From positions 1 through 64,000 of the forward strand of contig JAEUSM010000009.1 in NCBI GenBank assembly GCA_016788785.1: 64,000 bases of DNA, in the 5' to 3' direction. Shown one piece after another: positions 22,011-25,900 of the stretch; position 1 is the first letter of the stretch; each line of letters starts with the position of its first letter. The notes beneath the pieces were generated by a model. The model did no database searches. It was given only the letters and a program-made list of their open reading frames with translations, and was not told the origin of the DNA. The translations under genes were made by a program, and so were the position numbers. The DNA comes from Candidatus Kapaibacterium sp. (lineage in GTDB: Bacteria; Bacteroidota; Ignavibacteria; Kapaibacteriales; JAEUSM01).

Positions 22011-22517
22011 TCACCAACCAGAAATTACTGCCAAAAAAATATCATCAGTAATTCTATCTAAACATCGTAAAATTGCTTCATTTCTAGATATCTGTGTATT
22101 TGCAATTTGATACACATCATAGTTCGAAATAGTTTTTTTCCATAGCAATTTCTTTTTAACTGCATCATAATATTCTACTTCTGTAGAAATTGTGATACGT
22201 CGTTCCTTTTCCAATTCCCCTGGTTGCACCGCTTGAGTTGCGTCTACAATCGAAACAATCGCAGTACTTAACTCCGCATCAGCCTTTTGGTCGATGATTG
22301 TAAAGGAATTATCATTTCTAAATCGTTGTTGTATTCTTTGAGTTAATACTTCTCTATAAGTTGCAATACCAAAACCGCTTCGGTCAGTTACTGTTGCTAT
22401 AGAAATAGTTTTCAAATGTGGTGGAGTTGATCCGCCAGTAAACGAATAACAACCACCCAAACAACTACAGATTATCAACAGAAAGATGCAATTTACTATT
22501 TTCTTATCAAACACCAT
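22011..22517 (-). CDS. lptE: LptE-like LPS-assembly lipoprotein
   Basis: A 168-residue lipoprotein: signal helix then lipobox LGGC with the lipidated Cys at position 23, followed by CYSFTGGSTPPHLKTISIA, the typical opening of Bacteroidota LptE. The body shows the family's alternating strands (DRSGFGIATYREVLTQRI; STAIVSIVD; RRITISTEVEYYD). LptE plugs and assembles the LptD barrel that inserts lipopolysaccharide in the outer membrane; lptD is not in this window. The ATG at 22517 is used because it starts the signal peptide; an upstream in-frame codon at 22565 would add a non-secretory extension. First gene of a minus-strand operon, divergent from nrdJ. Confidence 0.85.
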   Translation of the reverse strand: MVFDKKIVNCIFLLIICSCLGGCYSFTGGSTPPHLKTISIATVTDRSGFGIATYREVLTQRIQQRFRNDNSFTIIDQKADAELSTAIVSIVDATQAVQPGELEKERRITISTEVEYYDAVKKKLLWKKTISNYDVYQIANTQISRNEAILRCLDRITDDIFLAVISGW

Positions 22518-22810
22518 ATAAACTATTGATGAAAAATTGAAAATAGATACGATTTTTTTGCACATTCAGAAGTAGTCTAAAAATGATAAAGGCTATAAAC
22601 GATATTAAAATAATTTAGTGTACTAACCTATGTCATTCTGGCGAATTCCGTAAATTTCACTGTAAATAGTTGACTAATTCCTCAAACAATTTCAATTTTA
22701 TTACGTCTTGTAATAAATCCAACACGTATAAAAATTTACGGTAATATTGAATCAATAGTTGTTTAAAATGTCGCTTTTGGTGAAAATTTCCAACAAAAGA
22801 GACTAAATTC
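22518..22810. other. AT-rich part of the lptE-nrdJ intergenic region
   Basis: No coding potential, tRNA or known riboswitch was found here. The stretch is strongly AT-rich and lies between divergent genes, next to the DnaA-box array. A weak hairpin, CTTTTG with CAAAAG, sits near 22770-22800. It could contain the lptE promoter and, if the region is an origin, the DNA-unwinding element. Confidence 0.4.
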
Positions 22811-22880
22811 TATGTGGATAACTGTGTGGATAACTTCGTAATCGGTATGTGGATAACTGTGTGGAAAAGTAGTGGAAAAG
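22811..22880. promoter_or_regulatory. Cluster of DnaA boxes upstream of nrdJ
   Basis: Three perfect DnaA boxes in the same orientation, TGTGGATAA (complement TTATCCACA), lie at 22813-22821, 22825-22833 and 22848-22856. TGTGGAAAA (22860-22868) and AGTGGAAAA (22871-22879) continue the row. Starts are spaced 12, 23, 12 and 11 bases. The first two boxes and the next two form a 35-base direct repeat (22811 and 22846 both begin TATGTGGATAACTGTGTGGA). The array ends just before the candidate nrdJ promoter. DnaA control of ribonucleotide reductase is known for E. coli nrdAB; whether this site regulates, starts replication or titrates DnaA is not decided by sequence. Confidence 0.8.
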
Positions 22881-22884
22881 TTTC

Positions 22885-22916
22885 TTTTACTTCAATAGAG
22901 TAATTCTGTAATTTTG
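22885..22916 (+). promoter_or_regulatory. Candidate nrdJ promoter
   Basis: TAATTTTG (22909-22916) is an exact TAnnTTTG -7 match. Twenty bases upstream is TTTT (22885-22888), one base off the TTTG element. The DnaA boxes end 5 bases before it, so DnaA bound there would contact or block RNA polymerase. Confidence 0.5.
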
Positions 22917-22983
22917 AAATACTTAAATTTTAAATGTACTCTAAGTTAGTACTTTCTAGCAATTTTCTATCGAAAGTAGATAA

Positions 22984-25900
22984 ATGAAAATTCAAAGACT
23001 TTTTACAAAACTGGGAACAAATGTTTACGATATGTTCTCATATACGAATCGTTCATCCATTTTGCGTAATACAAATGGTTCGGTCGTATTTGAAATGAAC
23101 AATATAGAAGTTCCTGAGCAATGGTCTCAAGTTGCTACCGATATATTAGCACAAAAATATTTCCGTAAGGCGGGAGTTCCTTTATATAACGAAGATGGTT
23201 CTCCAAAACTGGACGAAAAAGGAAAACACGTACTTGGTGCTGAAACATCCGTTAAACAAGTAGTTCACCGTTTGGCAGGATGCTGGAGATGGTGGGGAGA
23301 AGAACATGGGTATTTTGATACCAAAGAAGATGCACAGGCATTCTATGATGAGATTGCCTATACATTGCTTCACCAAATGATTGCTCCTAATTCACCGCAA
23401 TGGTTCAATACTGGGTTGCATTATGCTTATGGGATTACGGGTAATTCACAAGGACACTTTTTTGTCAATCCAAAAACTGGAAAATTAGAACGTTCTAAAG
23501 ATTCCTATACACATCCTCAACCTCACGCTTGTTTTATCCAATCAGTAACCGATGATTTGGTGAATGAAGGTGGAATTTTTGATTTGGCTACTCGTGAGGC
23601 GAGAGTTTTCAAATATGGTTCTGGAACTGGTTCAAACTTCTCAATGCTTCGTGGAGCTGGAGAAAAACTCTCTGGTGGAGGAACTTCATCAGGTGTGATG
23701 AGCTTTTTGAAAATTTTCGATAGAGCTGCTGGTGCTATCAAATCTGGTGGTACTACAAGACGTGCTGCGAAAATGGTTATACTAGATATTGACCATCCAG
23801 ATATCGAAGAATTTATTGAATGGAAAGCGAAAGAAGAAGAAAAAGTAGCGTCATTAGTTGCAGGATCCAAAATATGTTCTGCATTCTTACCTGCTATTAT
23901 GAATGCTGCATTAGAGGGTGGTACTGATCGCTCTTCTAATACAGCGCTAAACAATCTAATTCAAAAAGCTATTCATCGTGGTGTTCCTTTGAACTATATT
24001 GACAGAACATTGTCATTAGTTCAACAAGGATTTACAAATATAGATGTCCCGCAATATGATACACATTACGAATCTGAGGCATATACGACAGTAGCTGGTC
24101 AAAACTCCAACAACTCTGTCCGTGTAACGAACGAGTTTATGGAAGCCGTCAAAAATGACCTTCCTTGGAATTTAACTTGGCGAACAAACCGTTCGGTAAG
24201 CAAAACAGTTCGTGCTCGTGATTTATGGAATAAAATTGCGATGAGTGCATGGAAATCTGCTGACCCGGGTTTGCAATTTGATACGACCATCAATGAGTGG
24301 CACACTTGTCCTGCTGATGGAAGAATCAACGGCTCAAACCCATGTTCTGAGTATATGTTCTTAGATGATACTGCTTGTAACTTGGCAAGTGTTAATTTGG
24401 GGCATTTCCTTAATCATGAAAACGGTGAGTTTTATGTCAATGAATATAAACATACCATTCGATTATGGACAACTGTTTTGGAAATTTCAGTTTTGATGGC
24501 ACAATTCCCATCGAAAGAAGTGGCTCAACGCAGTTATGATTTCAGAACCTTAGGACTTGGATATGCTAATCTTGGTACTGTCTTGATGATTAACGGAATA
24601 CCGTATGATTCTCCGAAAGCTTTAGCATATTCGGGAGCTTTGACAGCTATTTTGACTGGTGTGGCATATGCAACAAGTGCAGAAATGGCTAAAGATCAAG
24701 GTCCATTCCCTAAATACGAGCGTAACCGTGAGGCAATGTTACGTGTTATGAGAAATCATCGTCGTGCTGCATACAATGCACCCAAAGAAGAGTACGAAGG
24801 ATTGACCAAATTTCCTATGGGAATTAATTCTACTATTTGTCCTCCAGCATTATTAACAGCTGCAAAAACATCTTGGGATGAAGCAATTGAATTAGGTGAA
24901 CAATACGGTTATCGTAATGCTCAAACAACAGTTATTGCTCCAACCGGAACTATTGCATTAGTTATGGATTGCGATACAACTGGTATCGAACCAGATTTCG
25001 CAATTGTGAAATTCAAAAAATTATCTGGTGGTGGATACTTCAAAATTGTGAACCAATCTGTTCGCAAAGCATTATCAACATTGGGATATAATGACCAACA
25101 AATTGAAGATATTGAGCGATATTGTAAAGGTTCTGGTTCATTAGTCGGTTGTAAACAAATTAACCGTAAAAACCTCAAAGAACGTGGATTTACGGATGAA
25201 GTTGTGGATAAAATTGATCAGCAATTAGAGTCAGTCTTTGATATCAAATTCGCATTTAATCGTTGGACAATTGGTGATGAAGCCTTCACTCAATTAGGGT
25301 TTTCATTAGACCAAATGAATGATTCTAACTTTGATATGCTTCGTGCAATTGGTTACACAAAAGAAGAAATCGAATTGGCGAATGATTATATTTGTGGTAC
25401 GATGACCATTGAAGGTGCACCACACTTGAAAGACGAACATTTGGCTGTCTTTGATTGTGCGAATCGTTGCGGCAAAAAAGGACAACGCTATATCAACTAT
25501 ATGGCACACGTTCGTATGATGGCGGCTGCACAACCATTTATTTCTGGTGCAATTTCCAAAACAGTTAATATGCCATCAGAGGCAACTGTAGAAGAAATTA
25601 GCAAGGTATATTTTGAGTCTTGGAACTATATGATTAAAGCAAACGCTTTATATCGTGATGGTTCGAAACTTTCTCAACCACTCAATAGTGCGAATTATGA
25701 TGGTCTTGATGAAATCGTGACCTTAGGTGATGAAAATACCTTAGATGAAACGAAAGGTCCAAAAGAAATTCAAGAAAGAATCATTGAACGTGTTATTTCG
25801 GATGTTGAACGCAGAAGATTGCCGAAAAAACGAAGTGGATTTGTTCGCGAAGTAGCAGTCGGTGGACACAAAGTGTACTTACGTACTGGTGAATATGAAG

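Follow-up and report, generated by a model that had tools for sequence, protein, structure and literature searches.

Five DnaA-box-like sites lie on one strand upstream of nrdJ (22813-22879) in the window, by which we mean the whole stretch of 64,000 nucleotides analysed, and they raise the question of whether DnaA directly controls a class II ribonucleotide reductase (RNR). The RNRs of B. subtilis and Caulobacter that have been proposed as DnaA targets are class I enzymes. The documented cases of DnaA acting on ribonucleotide reductase concern class I enzymes, mainly that of E. coli, where nrdAB has three DnaA boxes, one of them specific for DnaA-ATP, and is activated or repressed by DnaA according to its amount and bound nucleotide (PMC8203912); the RNR genes of B. 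subtilis and Caulobacter are given in the same paper as proposed targets. DnaA is also able to bind dATP and has been suggested as a responder to dNTP levels (PMC2773459). Our search of the literature on DnaA and nrdJ or Bacteroidetes RNRs, a weak test of novelty, brought up no paper, among those it covered, that describes DnaA boxes before a class II reductase.

The initial annotation had described three perfect boxes and two near matches in one orientation; their positions proved exact, and the site coordinates (Table 1) confirm the claimed starts 12, 23, 12 and 11 bases apart. Read against the DnaA 9-mer (TTATNCACA or accepted variants), three of the sites are TTATCCACA, one is TTTTCCACA and one is a weak TTTTCCACT. 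What had been called a 35-base duplication is a 23-nt repeat (22/23 identical) at 35-nt spacing, and it is accompanied by a second, 10-nt repeat (GTGGAAAAGT) at 11-nt spacing. The gene had been taken for a class II, B12-dependent RNR and the host for a Bacteroidota-like bacterium; the domain matches bear out the former, and the relatives, which are Kapabacteriales, the latter.

Table 1. Coordinates of the nrdJ locus features and of the dnaA gene; box centres are given relative to the predicted transcription start.
Feature	Position	Strand	Basis or remark
LptE-like lipoprotein gene, divergent upstream neighbour	22011..22565	-	start 248 bp from box 1
23-nt direct repeat, copy 1	22811..22833	+	carries boxes 1-2; 35-nt spacing
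Box 1, TGTGGATAA	22813..22821	+	perfect TTATCCACA on - strand; centre ~-103
Box 2, TGTGGATAA	22825..22833	+	centre ~-91
23-nt direct repeat, copy 2	22846..22868	+	carries boxes 3-4; 22/23 identical to copy 1
Box 3, TGTGGATAA	22848..22856	+	centre ~-68
Box 4, TGTGGAAAA	22860..22868	+	centre ~-56; form and place conserved in relatives
Box 5, AGTGGAAAA, weak	22871..22879	+	centre ~-45; adjoins -33 position
-33 element, degenerate TTTT	22885..22888	+	sequence prediction; 20 nt before -7 element
-7 element, TAATTTTG (TAnnTTTG), Bacteroidota-type promoter	22909..22916	+	sequence prediction
nrdJ, class II (adenosylcobalamin-dependent) ribonucleotide reductase, 1167 aa	22984..26487	+	PF08471, PF02867, TIGR02504
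dnaA of the window's genome	L131:1374-2888	-	all DnaA domains present

Between the array and nrdJ, TAATTTTG is the only TAnnTTTG, and its position puts the predicted transcription start near 22920, from which the box centres in Table 1 follow. The boxes had been said to end 5 bases before a candidate -33/-7 promoter. This spacing is right (5 bases separate the last box from the -33 position; counted to that position, box 4 is 17 nt and box 5 is 6 nt upstream) and the promoter is plausible, although its -33 half (TTTT) is weak. Control of nrdJ by a B12 riboswitch was rejected, as a search of 22500-23100 against Rfam, up to E 5, gave no match and no cobalamin family of Rfam matched in the window at the gathering score. 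The predicted nrdJ UTR does not fold unusually (z -0.30).

To what extent these boxes are shared was assessed in 61 retrieved loci with NrdJ, among which 46 kapabacterial loci had sufficient upstream sequence. The commonest 9-mer upstream of nrdJ was TGTGGAAAA, found in 30 of 47 regions (window included) compared to 1 in the reversed control. TGTGGAWAA reached 2.07/kb upstream of nrdJ, roughly 40 times its density elsewhere in the intergenic DNA of these loci (0.049/kb), and stood at 0.024/kb in the rest of their sequence; 38 sites were observed upstream of nrdJ where shuffles led us to expect 0.6. Several loci without an exact box carry a one-mismatch version at the same place.

The boxes are also phased with the promoter. 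In the subgroup with TTTTCCACA-sense boxes, the layout is box-N14-TTG-N20/21-TA(n)nTTG, the -7 motif falling into one 2-bp bin in 20 of 21 loci (shuffle maximum 3) and the TTG into one bin in 20 loci (shuffle maximum 7). Here the box stands anywhere from -188 to -371 relative to the start codon, while its distance to the core promoter is fixed. In the TGTGGAAAA-sense arrangement the box frequently lies right against the promoter, and some loci (L046, L057, L016, L038 and L040) hold two or three of them; the window has this arrangement, with the largest array of that set. Orientation is mostly clade-specific on the NrdJ tree, where we counted 10 changes, a number that is inflated, probably by in-frame inserts (likely inteins) that misplace L041 and L042. 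Such long in-frame inserts, probably inteins, follow residues ~180 and ~440 of NrdJ in G006, G015, G025, G034 and several f28 genomes.

We then turned to 59 more genomes of the phylum and read the sequence before their nrdJ. Boxes were present in all 17 genomes of families f33, f34, f49 and f54, which belong to another class of the same phylum and whose NrdJ is ~60% identical. In f34 there is an essentially invariant pair, TGTGGATAA-N11-TGTGGAAAA, between diverged flanks, and at L233 of this family the pair is followed by N16-TTG-N20-TATATTG. No boxes were found before nrdJ in 30 genomes of families from the window's own class, and only 1 of 11 f28 genomes has one, the other 10 carrying nrdJ without it; the element is therefore not obligatory. 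Conservation in relatives, on which the initial annotation had let its proposal depend, was thus found in the order and, with flanks diverged, in a second class, with promoter-locked boxes in one subgroup and absence from other families. The five-box array itself is private to the window's genome, the sole member of its family among the genomes searched.

How does this compare with known RNR regulation? Upstream of E. coli K-12 nrdA we find TTATCCACA-N11-TTG-N20-TATCTTG, in like orientation and 3 nt off the kapabacterial layout (box-N11-TTG-N20-TA against box-N14-TTG-N20/21-TA in the window's relatives). Both systems have one or more boxes directly upstream of the -35/-33 element, and E. coli nrdAB likewise combines one strong TTATCCACA with weaker sites. 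However, nrdAB encodes a class Ia enzyme with NrdR as second regulator in a genome that has other RNRs, whereas the window's enzyme is of class II and the only RNR detected, NrdR is undetected, three perfect boxes stand in a tandem duplication and the promoter is of Bacteroidota type. The RNR genes of B. subtilis and Caulobacter are similar in being proposed members of the DnaA regulon, but a fixed, phylum-wide box-promoter phasing does not feature in the account of them in the available text of PMC8203912. Control of RNR operons by NrdR, class II in Streptomyces included (PMC1636249), also puts nrdJ transcription under a nucleotide-binding protein, although the protein and its box differ from DnaA and the DnaA box.

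In the window's genome as a whole, TGTGGAWAA is not over-represented (110 occurrences against 137 for reversed-pattern controls), and single boxes in coding DNA were therefore treated as chance. Direct TGTGGAWAA pairs within 30 bp number 5 genome-wide compared to 1 in the control, and 3 of the 5 are in the nrdJ array. The largest other cluster of box words (C15:281838-282131, 6-8 boxes) is intergenic before serS and sits inside the broad cumulative GC-skew minimum (246-300 kb); from its sequence context it is the probable oriC of this genome. Box clusters also adjoin serS in three relatives from two other families (G022, G024 and G007), adjoin ftsQ/ftsA-like genes, named from reading the sequences rather than from a family search, in G018 and G010, and lie upstream of dnaA in genus g7. 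These are very probably the origins of the relatives. As to equally dense clusters at unrelated loci, which would have weakened the case, only two others are known in the genome, the probable oriC and a 59-bp site (C1:135483-135541, also L128:7484-7542) with three perfect TTATCCACA and AGTGGATAA. The latter is flanked by two genes without family matches, one weakly like phage head-decoration proteins, and possibly represents a titration site or a mobile-element promoter. Relative G036 carries tandem TGTGGAAAA arrays of 7 copies (C2:3906-3986) and ~10 copies (C102:105704-105856), in 12-bp or 12/21-bp steps.

The DnaA protein of the window's genome matches PF08299 in domain IV at 4.7e-30, and its recognition helix keeps the ARQ and GGRDHTTV box-reading residues. 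This protein, like those of the relatives read, has K where E. coli has P423 after the conserved leucine.

We therefore consider it likely that the array, as predicted from sequence, consists of DnaA sites that make up the regulatory DNA upstream of the nrdJ promoter, so that DnaA would directly control the sole RNR detected. Against this reading stand the occurrence of the array in a single genome, the families that carry nrdJ without boxes, the poor -33 element and the K in place of P423. In this uncultured bacterium and its relatives, predicted DnaA sites like those of the chromosome origin precede the only detected RNR gene, and the supply of DNA building blocks is probably tied to the onset of replication.

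The TGTGGAAAA of nrdJ promoters might instead be bound by some other transcription factor, particular to these lineages, whose motif resembles a DnaA box, the window's TTATCCACA copies being variants of that motif. Such a factor could account for the commonest form in relatives, where an extra conserved ACTTTG or ACTTTT comes after TGTGGAAAA, and for the CGTGGAAAA or TGGGGAAAA that several lineages carry. We find this unlikely, however, because the same two words, TGTGGATAA and TGTGGAAAA, 12-bp steps included, build the probable origins of the window's genome and of the relatives, because TTTTCCACA is already a DnaA-box form, known as such from cyanobacteria, and because the geometry is nearly the one seen at nrdAB of E. 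coli, a promoter under DnaA control.

The array may, on the other hand, bind DnaA mainly as a titration or reactivation site (datA/DARS-like) that stands before nrdJ by chance and acts on the timing of replication rather than on transcription. It is dense, such clusters are rare in the genome, and the similar one on C1 is not before an obvious replication gene. Yet the spacing between box and core promoter stays constant where that to the start codon varies by ~180 bp, titration would need more than the one or two sites of most relatives, and the sites follow nrdJ across distant lineages, all of which makes this explanation quite improbable. That a stretch with TTATCCACA was duplicated in tandem by chance, without function, would fit an array that is private to one genome and rests on a 23-nt repeat, but relatives conserve boxes, singly or in pairs, at this very place, and we give the account very little credence. 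That the nrdJ region is itself the chromosome origin, as boxes in a divergent intergenic region and a local change of GC-skew sign near 22 kb might suggest, was rejected as scarcely credible, because skew in the window tracks gene direction without a large-scale switch and C15 is the better candidate, holding the large-scale skew minimum and a serS-side box cluster in a neighbourhood common to relatives.

A protein search found no second reductase in the window's genome, and none of 41 genomes of the order yielded a class III RNR (NrdD). NrdR (TIGR00244) was found in 0 of 41 genomes of the order, the window's included, whereas controls were positive in 9 of 14; in the 59 further genomes of the phylum it was undetected save for one sub-cut-off match. 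As far as tested, the cell thus obtains its deoxyribonucleotides through nrdJ alone and lacks the usual repressor of RNR genes. The absence of NrdR was rejected as an explanation of which families bear boxes, since NrdR is undetected in box-free families too. The domain search detected no ATP-cone in the window's NrdJ. Residues 280-343 of this protein weakly match the YebC/TACO1 N-terminal domain (PF20772, E 2.4e-06, below cut-off), and the same weak match is present in L066 and L083.

We infer DnaA binding, the sign of regulation, a nucleotide switch and cell-cycle coupling at nrdJ, and a working model would run as follows. Just upstream of the -33/-7 promoter, DnaA would occupy the three strong TTATCCACA sites, with cooperative binding at the weaker TTTTCCACA and CTTTTCCACT sites nearer to the promoter, and this occupancy would set nrdJ transcription. 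A box near -55 that is moderately occupied, or that holds ADP-DnaA, would most likely help RNA polymerase, while ATP-DnaA filling the weak site near -45 would limit transcription, in line with the model published for nrdAB of E. coli. By adding strong sites, the tandem duplication would probably make the response steeper or more sensitive.

More tentatively, and with rather more doubt than confidence, we suggest that in whole lineages of the phylum without NrdR whose sole RNR is a class II enzyme without ATP-cone, DnaA may be the chief regulator through which dNTP synthesis responds to nucleotides, with its ATP/ADP (or dATP) state setting nrdJ transcription through a promoter-fixed box, and that some lineages, the window's included, may have multiplied the boxes to sharpen the switch. 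A promoter-locked box at a class II RNR across distant lineages in which NrdR is undetected, in a geometry near that of nrdAB, suggests that the link between dNTP supply and the initiator either is old or evolved more than once. Sister families with and without boxes offer a natural comparison for the purpose of this coupling.

Within the TTTTCCACA subgroup, the long leaders, ~200-300 nt before nrdJ, of L005, L007, L015, L021, L025, L029, L030 and L032 share GCAGCA-n-AGAGGAAG. They seem to be structured, as 18 of 45 predicted pairs are changed on both sides in six sequences, and Rfam gave no match to the leaders of this subgroup in the loci scanned. These leaders, which are absent in the window, may represent a new kind of cis-acting RNA that belongs to class II RNR genes. 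Elsewhere in the window, an Acido-Lenti-1 RNA (RF01687) is matched at 245-290 on the + strand with 41.7 bits, above the gathering score.
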